From positions 1-20,010 of IMG/VR virus record IMGVR_UViG_3300006916_000547: a stretch of DNA of 20,010 nt; one strand, given 5' to 3'. The notes under the pieces are model-generated. The model saw only the letters and a program-made list of their open reading frames with translations. It was not told where the DNA came from and made no database searches. Shown in pieces: positions 5,421 through 14,068 of the stretch. Each line of letters starts with the position of its first letter. The stretch's first letter is position 1. The DNA is from a virus. Both the position numbers and the translations under genes were made by a program.

Positions 5421-6256
5421 CAGAAGAACCCAAATGTTTTACCAGCACCAGCCAAGTCAGAAAGAATGCCGCCACCCGCCGCCGCATATCCCAGATTAGT
5501 CGCAATCGGATCGGAGTAGATCGGCTGCTGTGTCGTGGACTGACCGCCGAACGTACCGCCAGCCACAAGCGACATATACTTGCTGAGAGCGTCCTGTGGA
5601 GCGGTCTGCGCTTGCATGAATCGGTTAATGTCCTCTTGCAGCAGATTGCCAGCCATAGCCTCGCGCTCTGCGCCGACCTGACGAAGCGCGGACAGGTCTT
5701 GATAGTCAACATCGGCAAGCGATGGTGCCAGAAGGCCAGCCTGCTGCATCCTGCCACGCTCATCGGCATAATTCTGGAAGGCCATCTTTCCGGCGAGGTC
5801 GCTCAATTGAGTTCCGAGAATATCACCGGCCCGCTCCTGCTGCCGAGCCTGTAGGCCAGAACCAAGTCGAGTGGACTGCCCGAAGCCAGCCTGAATGCCC
5901 GGAATGATGTCCTCCTGGAAAGATTGCGTTAGCGGACGCGCAGCGGCCTCGTAGGCCGACTGGAGATAGGGATTGTTGGCCTGAAGGTAATCGCCGCTAA
6001 TTACGTTGCCGAAATAATCCTGTGCGCCTTGAACCAGCGGGGAACCTTGCGTAGCACGCTGCTCTATGCCGGAAAGCGCAGTCTCAGTCTGCGGCGCAAA
6101 CGGGACAACGGTAGAGTGCGGATAGAACTCAATGGGCTTGTCCAGAACGTCCGTTTCCGCACGCTGTAGACCCTTTTTAAGAAAGGGCTGCGCGTACGTC
6201 GGCGGCGCGTTGCTCTGGACTACCGTGCTTTGTCCGCTAGGTTTGTCGCTACTCAT
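5420..6256 (-). CDS. Virion-associated protein (putative internal or tail-tip), 278 aa
   Basis: The open frame extends upstream to 6313, but ATG 6256 is preferred because it forms the ATGA overlap typical of this operon with the stop of the GNAT-like gene. The protein starts MSSDKPSGQSTVVQ. It contains NPYLQSAYEAAARPLTQSFQ, then IIPGIQAGFGQSTRLGSG and a long helical Gln/Ala-rich stretch. I recall the pattern NPY...PLT.SF....PGI.....GSG from phage virion proteins encoded downstream of tail nozzle genes, many annotated only as hypothetical. The C-terminus is glycine-rich (YAAAGGGILSDLAGAGKTFG). An ejection or tail-tip role is inferred from neighbours. Confidence 0.6.
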   Translation of the reverse strand: MSSDKPSGQSTVVQSNAPPTYAQPFLKKGLQRAETDVLDKPIEFYPHSTVVPFAPQTETALSGIEQRATQGSPLVQGAQDYFGNVISGDYLQANNPYLQSAYEAAARPLTQSFQEDIIPGIQAGFGQSTRLGSGLQARQQERAGDILGTQLSDLAGKMAFQNYADERGRMQQAGLLAPSLADVDYQDLSALRQVGAEREAMAGNLLQEDINRFMQAQTAPQDALSKYMSLVAGGTFGGQSTTQQPIYSDPIATNLGYAAAGGGILSDLAGAGKTFGFF

Positions 6257-6657
6257 AACCGTTTCTCCAGTTGGACATGCCGCGTCCGGTAGTCCGTCAG
6301 AACCTTTTTCCATCCTGGGCGGGCGTACATCTCAACGAAATCGCAATTGAGTTCCCGCGCCCACGCTTCAATCTCAGAGAGGTATTCTACCCATCTTTCG
6401 TAATTTTCTCCAGCACAAGCGAAGATCGAAAGCCATTTTGCTCTAGGGCTTTCGCATACTTCCGTCAGGCAAAAAGCCTTAATGCCCTCCTCGTCCCACG
6501 CCGTCCAAAGCTGCATGGTCCCATCGCACAGGAACTCGTAAACATCATCTCCTGAAAGCCTCGATGTGCCGTAATCTAGCGCATCCTCAATCATGCGCTC
6601 GACAAGCGGCCATACGGACGGGATTTCAGCGGGCGCGGATGTTTGGAGGTAGATCAA
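6253..6657 (-). CDS. Small GNAT-like phage protein (T7 gp13-like type)
   Basis: The product is 134 residues, starting at TTG 6657, which overlaps the previous stop as TTGA; the next in-frame Met is only at residue 22, inside the fold, so the TTG start is favoured. The pattern is VWPLVERMIEDAL (15-27), QLWTAWDEEGIKAFCLTEV (49-67), SIFACAGENYERWVEYLSEI (77-96), IEAWARELNCDFVEMYARPG (96-115), then WKKVLTDYR. This matches, from memory, the small GNAT-fold proteins of podoviruses related to T7 internal virion protein gp13 (DUF2833). The canonical acetyl-CoA loop (R/QxxGxG/A) is not evident, so it may be a structural rather than catalytic relative. It overlaps the next gene by four bases (ATGA). 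Confidence 0.65.
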   Translation of the reverse strand: MIYLQTSAPAEIPSVWPLVERMIEDALDYGTSRLSGDDVYEFLCDGTMQLWTAWDEEGIKAFCLTEVCESPRAKWLSIFACAGENYERWVEYLSEIEAWARELNCDFVEMYARPGWKKVLTDYRTRHVQLEKRL

Positions 6658-7650: not shown

Positions 7651-9155
7651 TGCCCACCATCCTCAACAGCGTCATATGTGACGCCCTGCGCGTGGGTCCA
7701 CGATGCGCCAGCGGCGATATTGACCTGCGCCGATGCGAACTTGGTCGATGTGGTGAAGTGGGCGAAGCCATCGGCGTCGATGGCGTTGGCCGATGTTAAT
7801 GTCAGCGTTGACCCGCTGCTGTTCCCTTCGCGAAACTTGAGTGCTACCGTCACGTCAGAATCAACGGCATCAGTGAACGGCTGAACACCATTAACAAACG
7901 CCCGCGCATTGCCGTCAAGCAATGCACCCTCTGTCGTTTCGATAGTCGCCGCGAGGTTATCGCCCGCGAACCGCGCCAGCTTGTTGCTGCTATCAAAGCC
8001 GGAAAGCAGCAGACGCCCGCCCGTCCAGACGCGGCTATCAAGGGAAAACGGGAGCGTGTCAAGGTTGCCAAACTGGTCTAGCTGATCAAGCGTGTAGCCG
8101 TCCGACAAATCCTTGAATAGAAACTCTTGTTCAACCTCCGCATTCGACCAGCGATCAATGGCCCAATTGTAAATCACCACCTTGTTCGGACGACCATTTG
8201 AGTTACCGCTGCCGGGGTACGCCCACCACACCATTTTGTTGATTGGGTCAGCAGCGCCATAGATGCGATTGTAGTAGTTGGCATCGAGGTCATTGAAAAA
8301 CGTCTTGTCTACCTTCTGATCGCCAATCGGCGTGGACCCCGAACCCGAGAATGAATAGAACCCCTCTTCACCGAGGTAGAACCCGAACGGCCCAACATTG
8401 ACCACGCTATTCGGCGCGGGCGTGCCACGATCCCGCTCAACCTCATAGAAGCCAAACACCGTAGGCGGCCCCTGATACTGAATGCGATAGATGGCCTTCT
8501 CCATGAAGATGGCACCATCAAGACCACCGATAGCGCCGGTAATGCGCTGCACCCATCCGCCGACCGGCAAGTCCTGGTAATCCGATTGCTTCGCCGCCGC
8601 GTCTGCCGAGCCGATGGTAGGCCAATCCGTCGCGTCGTTCAATGCGGACCACCAGACACGATTTGGCACCGATCTGTCAGAACTGTCCCACGTATTGCCA
8701 AGCATCACAAAGCCCGGCTCGATAATCGCAATATGCCGCGCACGCGGAGGAGACCCGCCAAGATCGGCAAATGCGGACGATGAGTTTAGCGTGAACGCCT
8801 GTGGTGCGTCGGTGTGACCGTTGACGGAAATGACCACCTGCCCGAATTGAGCGAACTCCGTAATATCATCAGCGGCGACGGTATACGCGCCGGTTGACTT
8901 CGATACCTCGGTCCAGCTTGTTACGCTTAACTGATACAGATCGGATGCGGTCGCCGCGAACGTCTCCGTATTTCCGGCAGAGTCGCGAAAGGTCGCCGCC
9001 CCTTTAGGCGTATCCGCTAGAGCATCGCTGACCGAAGTAAGCCCACCAATCGGGCCGTAGGACTGCTCAGTTCTCGGGAGAACATTAAGCGCCTCTTTCG
9101 CCCCTGGATTTTCATAATCGGGTTGATCGGGAAGCCAAGGGCCAAATCTCTGCAT
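7647..9155 (-). CDS. Tail nozzle / P22-type stabilisation protein
   Basis: The product is 502 residues, beginning RFGPWLPDQPDYENPGA then KEALNVLPRTEQSYGPIGGL, the N-terminal signature I associate with P22 gp10-like stabilisation and podovirus nozzle proteins that bind the neck and carry the fibres. The rest is rich in Trp, Gly, Tyr and beta-strand patterns typical of a beta-propeller, for example PNRVWWSALNDATDWPTIGS, GGLDGAIFMEKAIYRIQYQG and NKVVIYNWAIDRWSN. Its start overlaps the adaptor stop as TAATG and its end overlaps the next gene as ATGA. The size and position right after the adaptor fit a hub or nozzle that closes the DNA channel. Confidence 0.78.
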   Translation of the reverse strand: MQRFGPWLPDQPDYENPGAKEALNVLPRTEQSYGPIGGLTSVSDALADTPKGAATFRDSAGNTETFAATASDLYQLSVTSWTEVSKSTGAYTVAADDITEFAQFGQVVISVNGHTDAPQAFTLNSSSAFADLGGSPPRARHIAIIEPGFVMLGNTWDSSDRSVPNRVWWSALNDATDWPTIGSADAAAKQSDYQDLPVGGWVQRITGAIGGLDGAIFMEKAIYRIQYQGPPTVFGFYEVERDRGTPAPNSVVNVGPFGFYLGEEGFYSFSGSGSTPIGDQKVDKTFFNDLDANYYNRIYGAADPINKMVWWAYPGSGNSNGRPNKVVIYNWAIDRWSNAEVEQEFLFKDLSDGYTLDQLDQFGNLDTLPFSLDSRVWTGGRLLLSGFDSSNKLARFAGDNLAATIETTEGALLDGNARAFVNGVQPFTDAVDSDVTVALKFREGNSSGSTLTLTSANAIDADGFAHFTTSTKFASAQVNIAAGASWTHAQGVTYDAVEDGGQ

Positions 9156-9778
9156 TAGAACGCCGTGGGTCTCAGTTTGGTTGACATCTTCGTAAAGGTC
9201 TCCTTCTCAAGGTTAGAGAACTCTTCACGCGCACGGGCGGCGCACTTAGCCTCTTCGCTCTCATTGCGAATGACATCGCCGAAAATGGTCGCCTTTGCCT
9301 TGTTACGGATAAGCGCCTCGCCGTCCGTCATCCACGCATTGGTATCCGTGGTAGCGGAAAGCGTGGTGAACTTCTGAACGCCTGAAAGATTGATGACGCG
9401 ACCAGAGCCAGGAATAGGATAAAAGCGAAGCCGCTGAGCGTAATAAACATAATCAGTAGGGTCGCCAGTGTACCCGGCATTAGTCTGAATCTCGTCAATG
9501 TACGCCCAATCGCGTTCAATAACAGGATAGGTCGATGTGTTAACGTCAATGGTGAGGCTGTCGATCTCGACGAGCAACGGGATTTGAGCGAGGTCCGCCG
9601 ATCCGTAATACTCCTGAGATGATGAAGTCGAGAATGAGGTTTGAAACTCATTGAAATAGAACCTGTTGCGCTCATAGAAGCGAATTGCTGTCTGGATCGC
9701 AGACTTGATTTGAGCGGTCAAATCTGACCGCCCCAATTCAGTCGAAATCCTGTCAATCATCGTGCCGTAAGTGGACAT
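9155..9778 (-). CDS. Head-tail adaptor protein (SU10-type)
   Basis: The product is 207 residues. The N-terminus is helical (MIDRISTELGRSDLTAQIKS, then AIQTAIRFYERNRFYFNE), followed by a beta region (LLVEIDSLTIDV; YPVIERDWAYIDE) and RLRFYPIPGSGRVINLSGVQ, then a helical C-terminus (EALIRNKAKATIFGDVI; REEFSNLEKETF). This helix-beta-helix plan with an RLRFYP-type strand is what I recall for adaptor/neck proteins of podoviruses such as SU10 and P22 gp4-like proteins, which dock below the portal ring. AAGG lies upstream of ATG 9778, two bases after the zinc-finger gene stop. It directly precedes the nozzle gene, which supports the assignment. Confidence 0.75.
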   Translation of the reverse strand: MSTYGTMIDRISTELGRSDLTAQIKSAIQTAIRFYERNRFYFNEFQTSFSTSSSQEYYGSADLAQIPLLVEIDSLTIDVNTSTYPVIERDWAYIDEIQTNAGYTGDPTDYVYYAQRLRFYPIPGSGRVINLSGVQKFTTLSATTDTNAWMTDGEALIRNKAKATIFGDVIRNESEEAKCAARAREEFSNLEKETFTKMSTKLRPTAF

Positions 9779-9780
9779 GG

Positions 9781-9933
9781 TTAAGCCTTACATGCCTTCG
9801 CATGAAAATGAACGCCGCGCCCGATTATCTTACCACATTTCGGGCATTGTCCCCGCTTTTTTTCTTCGGCTTTCTGGAATGCCTCAGAGATTGCCGTGAC
9901 CGGCGCGGGCTTGCTGTTTTCCTCGTGGTGCAT
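9781..9933 (-). CDS. 50-residue zinc-finger mini-protein (CX2C-X10-H-X3-C)
   Basis: A frame of 50 codons runs from ATG 9933 to TAA 9781, fitting exactly between its neighbours: one base after the glycosyltransferase stop and two bases before the adaptor ATG. AAGG precedes the start by about five bases. The N-terminal half is a charged helix (AISEAFQKAEEKKRG). The C-terminal part reads CPKCGKIIGRGVHFHAKAC, giving two Cys, one or two His and a final Cys, spaced like a small C2HC zinc finger. A DNA-, RNA- or protein-contacting finger is likely. Its function is unknown. Position suggests either part of the modification cassette or a neck assembly factor. It is short enough to be missed by ordinary gene calling. 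Confidence 0.75.
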   Translation of the reverse strand: MHHEENSKPAPVTAISEAFQKAEEKKRGQCPKCGKIIGRGVHFHAKACKA

Positions 9934-9934
9934 G

Positions 9935-10663
9935 TTACGCCTTCGCATCTTTGACCCCCTTATTGGCCCTGTCGAGGCAGTCCCACCAATCAGCGCCCCA
10001 CGGCGTCGGAGCCGCGTGCCGCATGTCCGGCGTGCCTAGAGTGAAGTGAACATTCTTCGGGCTTCCATCGTCTGGATCGTACCCGGCCAACCAGTTCCAC
10101 TCTTTAGGCAGCGATCCAATCTCTTCGTCCCGCAACCACGTCATGGCATGAAGCTGGTTCCCCGTGCTGTTGTTCACAACGTATGGCGTCAGCGAACGGC
10201 ACCTTGACGGGCGCATAAGCATGAAACTCGACCAGTTCTTGCGGCTATAGCTGGTCTGCAAGACGCCATCCATCTTGATGTCGCCGTCCTTCGCAACGTG
10301 ATTGTGCTTAACGCACATGACCGCTTTCGTGTTGTCGATCATGCTGACAAGTTCGGCAATGTCGGCACGGAACATCATGTCCGCATCCATGAACAGCACC
10401 CACTCATCGCTATAACCCTCAAGCAGAGGCACGGCAAAGCGCGTGAAGCTGAATTGAGTGGAGAACGGTCTGCCGTCGCGGTCGTCCCACATCTGGCCCT
10501 TCTGATCCACTCGATATGACCGCCAGTAATGCCCAAGGCCGCGCAATTCCCATTCGTAAAGCGGGCGAATATCGACATCAATGCTCGACCACTCAAGAAT
10601 TGACTGACGGGCCACGCGAAACGCATCGTGATCGCGAGGGTCGTATCCAATCCAGATTTTCAT
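9935..10663 (-). CDS. Glycosyltransferase with DXD motif
   Basis: The open frame reaches 10720, but ATG 10663 gives the ATGA overlap with the methyltransferase stop and places the family N-terminus MKIWIGYDPRDHDAFRV at residue 1, so it is chosen (242 residues). It looks like a GT-A, nucleotide-diphospho-sugar transferase: the first strand is KIWIGYD, then STQFSFTRFAVPLL (68-81) and VLFMDADMMFRADIAEL (89-105), where D93-A-D95 is the metal/nucleotide-sugar DXD. Downstream conserved blocks are KMDGVLQTSYSRKNWSSFML (130-149) and DEEIGSLPKEWNWLAGY (179-195), then VHFTLGTPDM. I recall this set of blocks from glycosyltransferases in Alphaproteobacteria and their phages. No membrane span is seen, so it is probably cytoplasmic. 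Sugar donor and acceptor cannot be read from sequence. Confidence 0.85.
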   Translation of the reverse strand: MKIWIGYDPRDHDAFRVARQSILEWSSIDVDIRPLYEWELRGLGHYWRSYRVDQKGQMWDDRDGRPFSTQFSFTRFAVPLLEGYSDEWVLFMDADMMFRADIAELVSMIDNTKAVMCVKHNHVAKDGDIKMDGVLQTSYSRKNWSSFMLMRPSRCRSLTPYVVNNSTGNQLHAMTWLRDEEIGSLPKEWNWLAGYDPDDGSPKNVHFTLGTPDMRHAAPTPWGADWWDCLDRANKGVKDAKA

Positions 10664-11166
10664 GCCTTCGGCCTCAACACTGCGATAAAAGTGCCGCCCT
10701 CGTTCTGGTATGATACCCATTCAAAATAATCGCTCAGACGCTCAGCCCACCAATGCATCGGCCTGAGAAGGATATGAGCGTTGCGACCGTCCGGCAGCAC
10801 TTTCCGCGCCGGGACAACGCAGATCGTCATGAACAGAACGCGATTGGTGACTCTGGCAAGATCGGCCAGAACGTCATCGAGACAGTCAAGTTCAAGATGC
10901 TCCGCAACATCGGTGCAGACCACAACGTCAGCCGGTTCCGGCGCGTCATCCTTACCCTTGATGCACGGATCATATTCGCTAATCCGCAACTTCAACGCCT
11001 GGCCGAGCGTCCCTTTCCCGCACCCGTAATCGAGAATGTCATGTGAGCCGACTGCCGCGCACAGGCTACGGATTGCATCGGCGTACTTATGACCAGACGT
11101 GCCATAGGCCGCATTGTCTTCGTGCAGCGCCTTATTCTGCTGCCTGTATTCCTCTGTAATGAGCAA
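10660..11166 (-). CDS. Class I SAM-dependent methyltransferase
   Basis: The SAM-binding motif I, ILDYGCGKGTLG, is intact; VVVCTDVAEHLELDCLDDVL follows as the post-I/motif II region, and LPDGRNAHILLRPMHWWAER is a conserved block I recall from a methyltransferase family that sits beside sugar-modifying genes. TTG 11166 is preferred as start: GGGGA lies about six bases upstream, the protein then opens LLITEEYRQQNKALHEDN as relatives do, and the overlap with the TPR gene drops to 35 bases. An ATG at 11205 (or GTG 11208) would add 13-14 residues with a 74-77-base overlap and a weaker ribosome site. The length is 168 residues. The substrate could be a sugar, a protein or a small molecule. Overlap with the glycosyltransferase (ATGA) suggests a shared pathway. 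Confidence 0.82.
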   Translation of the reverse strand: MLITEEYRQQNKALHEDNAAYGTSGHKYADAIRSLCAAVGSHDILDYGCGKGTLGQALKLRISEYDPCIKGKDDAPEPADVVVCTDVAEHLELDCLDDVLADLARVTNRVLFMTICVVPARKVLPDGRNAHILLRPMHWWAERLSDYFEWVSYQNEGGTFIAVLRPKA

Positions 11167-12466
11167 TGTCTTTCCCCACGTTGATAAATGGCTCCAACCA
11201 GTCATCACCTGACTGCCTGTAAAGTTTCACGCTGCCATACCACGGCATATCCCCGTGATACCGCCACGCGTAAGCCTTGGGCGTTAGAACCATACAAGGA
11301 ACACCAAGGCCACCGGCAAAATGCACCGCCGATTGACAGACTGTGACAACGACAGAACACGCCGCCACCATAGCCGCAAACTCGTCCAGGCCGTCGATGC
11401 CTTCCTGATAATGCGGGATACCAAGCTGGTCGGCTTGCATCTGCCCGTCCTCGCCATACTGAAGCGAGACGAAATTACCGCCCGCCGCAACCAGTTCTGC
11501 CCATAGAGACAGCGGCGCATTGCGAAGTTCCTGATGGGTGCTTTTCGTCCCACCATGCCACGCCAAGCCGATTGCGTTATCGCCTAGCCGCGCCTTCCAT
11601 CGCGCCACCTTGTCGGGGTGCGCCTTAAGGAAGGGCTTTCCGGGGAAGTCAGACTTCTTATTGCGGAACAGGCCACCAAGGTCGCCCATTGCGATATATG
11701 CGTCCGGCTTCTCATTCTTAATCAGCGTTGCGAATGACGGATAGCAAGGCACGCCGAAAGACCGCTCGAACAGTTCACACATGCGATGCTCGGCCTCGAT
11801 CACAATTTTATCGGCCAGCCTTGCCGCATCCTCAAAGCAGGACATGAACAGGATTTCGTCGCCGATCCCCTGCTCGCCATGAATAGCCAGCGTCCCGACC
11901 TTTTTGCCGTCCCATTTCGGACACTCAAACGGCCTGACAGATGACGACATATTCTGAAGCTGGAAACGCGACGAGTAATAGGGCCACGCCTTTTTGTATT
12001 TCCCCATTTCGAGTAGGGCCAGCGCCATATGATTGCGAGCGTGGGCGCAGTCCGGGTTGATGGCTAGCGCCCTTTCAGCGCACTCCACAGCCCTCTCTGG
12101 CGTGCCGTTGTTAACGTAACAGCCACTAAGGCTGCTCCACGTATCGCCACGATTCGGGTCAAGTTCCAGGGCTTTCTCATAAGCCTTGACCGATTTCTCA
12201 GTATGCCCTTCGCTGCGATACGCCACGGCCAGATTGTGCCACACTTCCGGCAATTGCCCGCCCTCAAGCGATGCGCTCTTTTCAAGCATGACAATCGCCG
12301 TGCCAAACTCTTTAAGCTGGCTGCGAAGGGTGCCGTACAGGAACAACGCAATCGGATCGTCGGGAACGCTGCCGATTAGGTTTTCGTAAAGGTATGCGGC
12401 TTTTTGAAGGTCGCCGGTCTTGTGCAGTTCACCGGCCTCTGCAACTACATCCATATAAGGACGCAT
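11132..12466 (-). CDS. TPR-repeat protein fused to a GT-B/heptosyltransferase-like glycosyltransferase domain
   Basis: The product is 444 residues, with GGGGAG about six bases before ATG 12466. Residues about 5-165 form tandem TPR helices; the clearest are PEVWHNLAVAYRSEGHTEKS (74-93), KAYEKALELDPN (95-106) and AVECAERALAINPDCAHARN (126-145). Residues about 190-420 resemble the C-terminal domain of bacterial TPR-glycosyltransferase proteins and GT9 heptosyltransferases: LAIHGEQGIGDEILFMSCFE (193-212), IGLAWHGGT (299-307), NFVSLQYGED (331-340) and VVVTVCQSAVHFAGGLGVP (372-390) with the acceptor/donor-site QSAVHFAG. TPRs usually recruit a protein partner, so this may be a protein-directed sugar transferase; that is inference. 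It begins a coupled cassette just after a strong hairpin. Gain from a bacterial host is plausible. Confidence 0.83.
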   Translation of the reverse strand: MRPYMDVVAEAGELHKTGDLQKAAYLYENLIGSVPDDPIALFLYGTLRSQLKEFGTAIVMLEKSASLEGGQLPEVWHNLAVAYRSEGHTEKSVKAYEKALELDPNRGDTWSSLSGCYVNNGTPERAVECAERALAINPDCAHARNHMALALLEMGKYKKAWPYYSSRFQLQNMSSSVRPFECPKWDGKKVGTLAIHGEQGIGDEILFMSCFEDAARLADKIVIEAEHRMCELFERSFGVPCYPSFATLIKNEKPDAYIAMGDLGGLFRNKKSDFPGKPFLKAHPDKVARWKARLGDNAIGLAWHGGTKSTHQELRNAPLSLWAELVAAGGNFVSLQYGEDGQMQADQLGIPHYQEGIDGLDEFAAMVAACSVVVTVCQSAVHFAGGLGVPCMVLTPKAYAWRYHGDMPWYGSVKLYRQSGDDWLEPFINVGKDIAHYRGIQAAE

Positions 12467-12491: not shown

Positions 12492-12518
12492 CGGGGACCG
12501 GGTGTTGCCCGGCCCCCG
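12492..12518 (-). terminator. Strong GC-rich hairpin, probable terminator/attenuator after the capsid block
   Basis: An 11-bp stem with one G-U pair and a five-base loop (CAACA) lies eight bases after the stop of the decoration candidate. In the transcript the arms are CGGGGGCCGGG and CCCGGTCCCCG. The trailing tract is only CTTTC, so termination may be partial. It would lower expression of the downstream cassette and tail genes relative to capsid genes, or protect the 3' end of the capsid message. Confidence 0.65.
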
Positions 12519-12525
12519 ACAATCA

Positions 12526-12966
12526 TTAGGACGAGCCGACCGCCGTATAGAGAACGGTGAGGTCAATCGTCGCCGAGATGGTCCACGTTGCGGACGAGGG
12601 CGAGACAGCCACGTAGGTGTGGCGGACAGCCGCATCATCCGAAAGCGATACCCGGTACTTGCGAGCGCCCTCGTCAGAGAACACCGGAGCGGTGCCGCTG
12701 GCGAGAGAACCGAAGACCGAAAGGGTATTCGCGGACAGGCCACCACCGGCAAGGCCAACGGTCGCATTCGCCGCCGTCTCTGCCGTGGTGATCTTGCCAT
12801 AGATGCCGATGATGTCGCACACCGCCGGAACCTTGACCATCAGAACAACGTCGCCAACCGTGCCCGAGTGGACATAGGTGGCAGACGCAGCCTGAACGCC
12901 CGTGTGAGCCAAACGCGGCTCGATACCCGCAACGGCCTGGGTGGAAGTAACAGTCGAAACAGCCAT
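12526..12966 (-). CDS. Small head protein, capsid decoration candidate
   Basis: The product is 146 residues, with an excellent AGGAGG five bases before ATG 12966, only 16 bases after the major capsid stop. It is small, Ala/Val/Thr/Ser-rich, and mostly beta-strand in pattern (TYVHSGTVGDVVLMVKVPAV; KYRVSLSDDAAVRHTYVAVS; WTISATIDLTVLYTAVG), with no membrane span or enzyme motif. Position directly after the capsid gene, the strong ribosome site and a following hairpin argue for a high-copy virion protein such as a capsid-cementing protein. I do not recognise the family by sequence, so the decoration role rests on context. Confidence 0.65.
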   Translation of the reverse strand: MAVSTVTSTQAVAGIEPRLAHTGVQAASATYVHSGTVGDVVLMVKVPAVCDIIGIYGKITTAETAANATVGLAGGGLSANTLSVFGSLASGTAPVFSDEGARKYRVSLSDDAAVRHTYVAVSPSSATWTISATIDLTVLYTAVGSS

Positions 12967-12982: not shown

Positions 12983-14068
12983 TTAAACGCTAGGCGCGTA
13001 GGTTGAAAGGGCGATGGTCGAGAACGACTGGCTATTGAAGATCGTCCGCTTCATGCCAGCAATGCAGCCAGCGGCCACACCAAGCTGGTTTTCGTAGTCG
13101 AACAGTTCTTCGGTCCACGACATCCGATTCGGGGCATCGTCACGGCCAAACGCCATCAGACCAGCCTGAGCGCCACAGAAGACAGCGCGGCGGAAGTCCG
13201 TCGCGGTACCACTGTTCGGCGTTCCGGTGATGGTCGGAATGCGCGTGTTTTCGTGAACGATAACCTGATTGTACACGAACGATGCACCCGTGAAGATCGG
13301 GTTGTCCTTGTACATGCCGCCCTGCAGATTCGCCTTGAACAGATCGACGTAGTTGCCCACGGTCGAGGTGTTCGAGGTACGAAGCTGATACATCTGATAC
13401 GGATGGACGAACAGAACGAAGTATTCGTCGCCCTCGTAACGGATGGGACGGATGATCGGAGCCGAGCCGGTCGTGAAGGTCTTGGCCTTCGCCACTAGAC
13501 GGTCGATGTCCGAAAGCTGCAACGCTTCCGTGGTGGTAGCCGAAAGGGAGGCTTCCGTGTCGTGACCGCCGCCAGCGATAAGATGCGTGGCGTCCATTGC
13601 GGTGACGGCCTGGTTGCCGGTCTTTCGGGTATCGGTCTCGGTCGTGTTACCAGTAAGCTGGTTGAACGCCCAAGTGTCGATGCGATCAGCCCACCAATCC
13701 TGAAGGCCCATGCGGGCTTCTTCACGGACCGAGAACGGAACGCGCTGCTCCGACATCTTGCCGCCCGAACGGACAGCATGACGAAGCTGGTTGATGTAAA
13801 CCTGATCCGAATAGGTGGTCAGGGCCTCTTCGTTACCTTCCAGGGTGCCGTCACCCTGAATACCGTTGCCGGTAAGCTGCATACGCAGACCCACCGTAAC
13901 ATTGTCACCAGCCGACTTCTGCGTGTCGTCAACGATCTGGATGAGGCTATCGGAACCAGTACCCATGAACTTCGCCATGAAGGTCTGCTTCAGCGCCTCA
14001 TGCGCCAGCTTCTTTGACCACAACGAGACTGCCAACGGATGACCGACACCATAATCAGTGCTAGCCAT
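12983..14068 (-). CDS. Major capsid protein, N4-gp56 family
   Basis: The product is 361 residues. Family features: an N-terminal arm with LAVSLWSKKLAHEALKQTFM (about 12-31), KFMGTGSDSLIQIVDDTQKS (about 33-52), GDNVTVGLRMQLTGNGIQGD then TLEGNEEALTTYSDQVYINQ, VREEARMGLQDWWADRID, YFVLFVHPYQMYQLR and NPIFTGASFVYNQVIVHE. I recall these blocks from the N4-gp56 major capsid family (DUF4043-like; HK97-fold coat of N4-type podoviruses). Length is usual for that family. It follows the scaffold gene after a 136-base gap and uses its own ribosome site in a hairpin loop. It forms the icosahedral shell around the scaffold and attaches to the portal at one vertex. Confidence 0.9.
   Translation of the reverse strand: MASTDYGVGHPLAVSLWSKKLAHEALKQTFMAKFMGTGSDSLIQIVDDTQKSAGDNVTVGLRMQLTGNGIQGDGTLEGNEEALTTYSDQVYINQLRHAVRSGGKMSEQRVPFSVREEARMGLQDWWADRIDTWAFNQLTGNTTETDTRKTGNQAVTAMDATHLIAGGGHDTEASLSATTTEALQLSDIDRLVAKAKTFTTGSAPIIRPIRYEGDEYFVLFVHPYQMYQLRTSNTSTVGNYVDLFKANLQGGMYKDNPIFTGASFVYNQVIVHENTRIPTITGTPNSGTATDFRRAVFCGAQAGLMAFGRDDAPNRMSWTEELFDYENQLGVAAGCIAGMKRTIFNSQSFSTIALSTYAPSV

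Follow-up and report, generated by a model that had tools for sequence, protein, structure and literature searches.

A putative capsid-glycosylation cassette between the capsid and neck genes of uncultured podovirus-like phages

Why would a phage keep a tight block of sugar-transfer and methylation genes between the genes for its capsid and the gene for its neck? The question is raised by the IMG/VR virus record IMGVR_UViG_3300006916_000547, positions 1 to 20,010 of which we analysed (this whole 20,010-base stretch is hereafter called the window). Its structural genes lie on the minus strand in the order of transcription terminase, portal, scaffold-like protein, major capsid protein and a 146-aa cement protein, followed by a tetratricopeptide repeat (TPR) protein fused to a glycosyltransferase (TPR-GT), a methyltransferase, a GT8-like glycosyltransferase, a mini-gene, an SU10-type adaptor and a stabilisation protein. 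We propose, with a probability of roughly 0.6, that the four-gene cassette glycosylates the shell protein of the phage itself, that is, the major capsid protein and/or the cement protein, through a cytoplasmic mechanism resembling that of FlmG and OGT, the identity of the acceptor and the chemistry being the conjectural part of this proposal. The relevant features, in the direction of transcription, are as follows:

12983..14068, minus strand: major capsid protein of the N4gp56 type, candidate acceptor (Phage_capsid_3, PHROG)
12526..12966, minus strand: probable capsid cement/decoration protein, 146 aa, candidate acceptor (modelled beta-sandwich, fold matches)
12492..12518, minus strand: GC-rich hairpin with an 11-bp stem and a T-containing tail, CTTTCATC (folding energy, conservation)
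11132..12466, minus strand: TPR + GT-B glycosyltransferase (TPR-GT), 444 aa (Pfam TPR, AlphaFold2 model, fold matches)
10660..11166, minus strand: class I S-adenosylmethionine (SAM)-dependent methyltransferase, from its corrected, most likely TTG start (phrog_24759, conserved motifs, relatives and DNA)
9935..10663, minus strand: GT-A-type glycosyltransferase, GT8/GT24-like, ~242 aa from its corrected, most likely ATG start (phrog_28018)
9781..9948, minus strand: C2HC mini-protein, 55 aa, CPKCGKIIGRGVHFHAKAC (pattern repeated across related loci)
9155..9778, minus strand: SU10-type neck adaptor, the downstream border of the cassette (Pfam SU10_adaptor, E 5.4e-15)

A preliminary description of this DNA had placed the four genes, as one coupled block, between the capsid and decoration genes and the neck adaptor. 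All four are indeed at these positions on the minus strand, and Pfam identifies both border genes as claimed (for the capsid, Phage_capsid_3, E 1.9e-70, with a further match to the PHROG major head protein, E 6.7e-86). The open reading frames (ORFs) stand as placed, but two starts had to be moved: the methyltransferase (uncorrected ORF 10660-11208) most likely begins at TTG 11166-11164 (MLITEEYR...) and the DXD glycosyltransferase, i.e., the GT8-like enzyme (uncorrected ORF 9935-10720), at ATG 10663, as judged from relatives and the DNA, both ORFs being on the minus strand. The coupling is as tight as claimed, all four frames overlapping or nearly abutting: the methyltransferase read from TTG overlaps the TPR-GT gene by 35 nt, its stop shares an ATGA overlap with the GT8-like start, the mini-gene shares 14 nt with the GT8-like gene, and 2 nt separate it from the adaptor ATG.

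Is this arrangement peculiar to one contig? When IMG/VR was scanned with the TPR-GT or the GT8-like protein as a single query, the only contig recovered was 100% identical to the window. The capsid protein, used as query, yielded 78 distinct loci, whose genes were labelled with profiles built from the window genes, and a second scan, independent of the capsid, was seeded by a TPR-GT alignment; the two were pooled and contigs known as repeats were dropped, some of the loci being near-copies and the labels being those of automatic profiles. Because the scans rank by similarity, the counts describe the nearest relatives rather than all phage TPR-GTs. Capsid-seeded loci with a readable slot mostly run capsid, cement, TPR-GT, methyltransferase, GT8-like enzyme, adaptor, and nearly all TPR-GT-seeded contigs among the matches listed share these neighbours. 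At least 126 TPR-GT loci were mapped among the matches listed, with an N4gp56-type capsid gene no more than three genes upstream in 112 of the 126 and a cement gene within the same distance of the TPR-GT in 113. Where the slot was complete to the adaptor (88 loci among the matches listed), the methyltransferase was present in 73, the GT8-like gene in 74, both in 64 and neither in 5. The arrangement is far above chance and recurs in dozens of diverged contigs.

The cassette adjoins two capsid families, N4gp56-type and SU10, always between capsid and adaptor. In locus L227, an SU10_MCP gene (E 6e-92) lies two genes upstream of the TPR-GT, and three other loci (L231, L234 and L239) have no N4gp56-type capsid label, their capsid genes resembling, by eye, each other and that of L227. 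Several SU10-type loci have the GT8-like gene ahead of the methyltransferase. Other placements occur as well: in L214 the TPR-GT precedes the portal, and in MW202713 a TibC-like gene lies near the terminase.

The enzyme genes of the cassette are under purifying selection. Compared with locus L061, the TPR-GT has a ratio of nonsynonymous to synonymous substitution rates (dN/dS) of 0.12 and the GT8-like enzyme one of 0.14; the methyltransferase, saturated in that comparison, gives 0.21-0.25 in three other pairs, and wherever the ratio is computable, relatives differ mostly at synonymous sites. A passenger (moron) module unconnected with morphogenesis would be expected at varied sites and is therefore largely disfavoured, to the point that we consider it very improbable: capsid-related phages lacking the cassette do exist, but the cassette occupies one slot, mostly in one order, in dozens of diverged phages of two capsid types, and is selectively maintained. 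Cassette-free cultured relatives are Paracoccus phage KLEP18-1, Rhizobium phage RHph_Y1_10 and Microcystis phage Mae-JY35, which have just small genes between cement and adaptor, with an additional HNH endonuclease in RHph_Y1_10.

The contents of the slot in other loci bear on the same issue. Radical SAM-SPASM proteins are the commonest extra group (11 members), joined by GT29 sialyltransferase-like proteins, FkbM methyltransferases, a 2-oxoglutarate (2OG) oxygenase-like protein, a glycosyltransferase fused to Methyltransf_24 and, in L180, a nucleoside diphosphate (NDP)-sugar 4,6-dehydratase/epimerase; HNH-like endonucleases and trypsin-like proteins, as read from the sequence, occur in some loci. 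With sugar-type enzymes dominating it, the slot looks more like an evolving glycan pathway than a collection of random passengers. The preliminary description had called for a search for the gene order in other phages and had named a slot filled with unrelated passengers as the contrary outcome; the order was found in dozens of diverged contigs with two capsid types, and what fills the slot there is either these enzymes or others of the sugar type. Radical SAM-SPASM genes can be seen, for example, at 13877-14824 in L012, 12549-13523 in L035 and 8272-9213 in L041. Mutually related HNH/homing-endonuclease-like genes lie inside the cassette at 20848-21324 in L001, 13428-13880 in L012 and 13864-14604 in L077.

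What, then, does the cassette modify? In the TPR-GT, TPR helices (residues ~4-169) precede a GT-B domain (~178-440) with a GEQGIGDE motif at 197-204, and the AlphaFold2 model has a predicted local distance difference test score (pLDDT) of 94.6 and a predicted template modelling score (pTM) of 0.90. A TPR array at the N-terminus with a GT-B domain behind it, as indicated by Pfam, the model and the fold search, is the architecture of FlmG-type protein glycosyltransferases. Whole-length Foldseek searches place SPINDLY and OGT, protein glycosyltransferases that combine TPR with GT41, at the top (best E 1.9e-14, identity 9-14%), with template modelling (TM) scores of just 0.3-0.4 because domain orientation and length differ; unlike these proteins, the window enzyme has no Pfam match to Glyco_transf_41 (GT41/OGT) at E up to 1. 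The glycosyltransferase half superposes on GT9 heptosyltransferases with Z ~17 and a root-mean-square deviation (rmsd) of 3.2-3.5 over ~235 residues, and on TibC with Z 15.9 and rmsd 3.0. Given that Glyco_transf_9 likewise has no match at E up to 1, despite this strong similarity of fold, we class the TPR-GT as GT9-like only; sequence matches of the glycosyltransferase domain alone to solved structures are marginal (heptosyltransferase II, E 0.11). GT9 enzymes build lipopolysaccharide, whereas TibC is a glycosyltransferase that acts on autotransporters as a dodecamer and without a TPR arm; GD and VH-AG-GVP type motifs are, we presume, common to the TPR-GT and GT9/TibC. Residues E198, Q199, G200, G202 and D203 of GEQGIGDE are invariant in 40 aligned TPR-GT members, and as the aligned range sets residue 191 against WaaC residue 1, D203 falls, on the assumption of no gap, near Asp13 of WaaC, which we take to be the proposed catalytic base. 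In a quick tree of the glycosyltransferase domain, most phage sequences stand apart from most bacterial ones, bacterial relatives of the TPR-GT being known.

The model is compact, without an obvious membrane anchor, so that hydropathy peaks reaching 2.0 are taken as buried core rather than membrane helices. This bears on the possibility that the target belongs to the host, a surface glycan or a cytoplasmic protein remodelled late in infection, for instance, to block superinfection. Phage gtr clusters do alter O-antigen, and related GT8-like genes of large phages sit in groups away from capsid genes, but the absence of an anchor from the TPR + GT-B model does not favour such a role, nor does the lack of a match to the GtrA flippase (PF04138) in 17 related records, which include the complete genome MW202512 but are mostly possibly incomplete and do not cover the window; as a host target would, moreover, give no reason for the tie to two capsid types, we regard it as unlikely. 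Modification of DNA, in the style of T4 glucosylation, is the least probable alternative. T4 beta-glucosyltransferase also has a GT-B fold, but TPR arms bind proteins, the cassette lies among late structural genes, and 17 related records, mostly of uncertain completeness, yielded no member of the thymidylate-synthase/dCMP-hydroxymethylase family (PF00303). Modification of a virion protein, as suggested in the preliminary description, is therefore the reading best supported by the capsid-side placement, the enzyme architecture and these searches, whereas the acceptor, the sugar and the target of methylation are surmised.

The methyltransferase matches phrog_24759 (methyltransferase, E 1e-21) and contains DYGCGKGTL, CTDV-EH and a DGRNAH motif specific to its family; when the window's own record was searched for Methyltransf_24, there was no match, the cassette enzyme being of another type. 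The DGRNAH motif is invariant in 22 aligned members and is not accounted for by general SAM-binding motifs. The GT8-like enzyme matches phrog_28018 (E 6e-59) and, at E 0.0013 and 18.8 bits, falls under the curated cut-off of 24.3 bits for Glyco_transf_8; it carries a DADMM (DXD) motif, with D114, H225 and G229 invariant (numbering of the longer ORF). The mini-protein pattern MRRR...CxxCG..IGRG...H...C is found again in many related loci and defines a small family.

Which virion protein would be the acceptor? The model of the 146-aa protein is a beta-sandwich (pLDDT 78.7) that comes closest in fold to chains from the capsid or cement of Pam1, KHP40, KHP30 and GP4 (E 3e-4 to 1.6e-3), so that we identify it, with fair confidence, as a capsid cement protein; the decoration candidate of the preliminary description is thus predicted to fold like one. 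In N4-type phages, the capsid protein, the cement protein or both may be modified. Two arguments from the cement protein were discarded. Serine plus threonine make up a high 22% of the window cement protein, but cassette-free phages have cement proteins with 14-22%, so that this content does not single out the acceptor. The idea that cassette-free phages have an unrelated cement protein was also dropped, as profile comparison suggests distant homology for most of the proteins compared (probability 80-91%, and 37% in one case), which ties the cassette to a cement subfamily only.

An acceptor elsewhere in the virion, the neck adaptor, the nozzle or a tail fibre, modified by the same chemistry, appears doubtful. 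The adaptor follows the cassette in 88 loci among the matches listed, and the distance matrices of adaptor and methyltransferase are correlated (partial r 0.38), but this correlation may reflect linkage alone, the fibre-like gene is several kilobases away, and cassette-free relatives have similarly placed adaptors.

Several observations weigh against glycosylation of the shell. First, in the SU10-type loci examined, the gene adjoining the TPR-GT is not of the window's cement family; hence, cement cannot be the general acceptor, and a shared acceptor would have to be the capsid protein. Second, the tree of N4-type capsids explains the presence of the cassette with about two changes, which implies that within this group the cassette was mostly inherited and that its co-occurrence with the capsid largely reflects shared descent; conserved neighbours may simply be travelling together. 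Third, mirror-tree signals are weak (partial r of the TPR-GT 0.19 with cement, 0.12 with capsid and 0.30 with the GT8-like enzyme) and, being confounded by neighbourhood, are not counted as proof. Finally, flagellin was not seen on the TPR-GT contigs of bacterial relatives, although 14 of the 20 genomes have flagellins, in a weak check that relied on contig numbers only, matched by eye where possible.

A hairpin separates the cassette from the shell genes. The segment 12464-12530 has a minimum free energy of -35.3 kcal/mol (z -5.9), and the hairpin within it, between the cement gene and the TPR-GT, has a weak T tail. Among 80 unique loci, 65 have a terminator-like hairpin in the first 120 nt downstream of the cement stop, compared with 3.4 +/- 1.4 in dinucleotide shuffles, and such hairpins are rare after the capsid (6/78), methyltransferase (0/60) and adaptor (1/58) genes; four SU10-type loci have the hairpin after the capsid gene instead, and cassette-free relatives have it in 2 of 9 cases. 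This position-conserved hairpin, a new observation of the present analysis, is probably a transcription attenuator. By analogy with terminators behind the capsid genes of other phages, which serve to make shell proteins more abundant, it likely keeps the enzymes and neck proteins scarcer than the shell proteins.

Under our proposal of shell glycosylation, the TPR arm would bind the freshly made major capsid and/or cement protein, and the GT-B domain would use a nucleotide sugar of the host to attach the first sugar to it, an O-glycosylation comparable to that of flagellin by FlmG and of nuclear proteins by OGT. The GT8-like enzyme might then lengthen the glycan, and the methyltransferase might cap or edit it, with the C2HC mini-protein as a possible accessory; the hairpin past the cement gene would provide for an excess of shell protein over catalytic amounts of the enzymes. 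We infer the sugars, the order of the steps and the attenuation.

Both halves of this scheme have precedents. In Caulobacter, the TPR half of FlmG binds flagellin, which the glycosyltransferase half alone does not, and flagellin is glycosylated in the cytoplasm (PMC7591256). The cassette enzyme shares the N-terminal TPR and C-terminal GT-B arrangement and the soluble, cytoplasmic character of FlmG, and its proposed substrate, like flagellin, is a structural, self-assembling protein modified ahead of assembly; it differs in being phage-encoded, shorter (444 vs 596 aa), capsid-adjacent and linked to a GT8-like enzyme and a methyltransferase, and flagellin itself is not expected in a phage. Mycobacteriophages, for their part, are reported to carry glycosyltransferases of their own that modify capsid and tail-tube proteins, which shields the particles from antibodies (PMC12363180; see also PMC11256854), with Che8, Corndog and Myrna as examples (Freeman et al. 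2023, via both sources). The likeness lies in phage glycosyltransferases that act, or in the present cassette would act, on such virion proteins; the differences are the mycobacterial hosts and, for the F1 phage Maravista, a position of the glycosyltransferase genes near the 3' end of the genome and not next to the capsid gene. By analogy, the cassette would combine both principles: its TPR-guided enzyme is encoded next to the shell proteins and is accompanied by a putative glycan extender and a methyltransferase. The complete 44.4-kb genome MW202512 (Podoviridae sp. ctDrO704, Manatee Spring) has its capsid, cement, TPR-GT, methyltransferase, glycosyltransferase, adaptor and stabilisation protein genes in this order, as in the window, differing from it by an endonuclease gene within the cassette, and is annotated with isolated labels only (tetratricopeptide repeat, fkbm family methyltransferase, galT-like).

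Virion glycosylation is, therefore, already known, but the architecture, capsid linkage and spread of this cassette are, as far as checked, undescribed; we searched the open-access literature and found no paper describing such a cassette. We see about an even chance for the broader claim as a whole, namely, that it represents an undescribed capsid-glycosylation island widespread in uncultured podovirus-like phages of two capsid types, a TPR-guided cytoplasmic system acting on the phage's own shell and kept, by a position-conserved attenuator, at lower expression than the shell genes; its glycan would be specific to the lineage and often methylated, GT29-like, radical SAM or NDP-sugar enzymes taking part in some phages. 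Few cases of glycosylated phage particles are known, chiefly from mycobacteriophages, and the presence of such enzymes at the same place in more than 100 other phage contigs suggests sugar-coated shells. If so, sugar-coated capsids would be common among uncultured environmental phages and, the module being recognisable beside capsid genes, predictable from sequence; with their variable accessory enzymes, lineages would differ in their glycans, as expected under selection. These phages would also offer small, soluble, TPR-guided protein glycosyltransferases with the acceptor probably encoded next door, convenient for questions of target choice.

A prophage-like locus in the sequenced bacterium Reyranella sp. 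CPCC 100927 (L091, 7054-20812) offers a possible route to a cultured host; it contains a TPR-GT gene, methyltransferase-like and GT8-like genes, an adaptor gene, a stabilisation gene and several large genes that mostly have no Pfam match. Elsewhere in the window, the small protein encoded at positions 6253-6657 (minus strand) weakly matches profiles of the acetyltransferase type and was labelled by profile in 31 loci; the cassette-free Paracoccus phage KLEP18-1 has an annotated acetyltransferase at a similar place.

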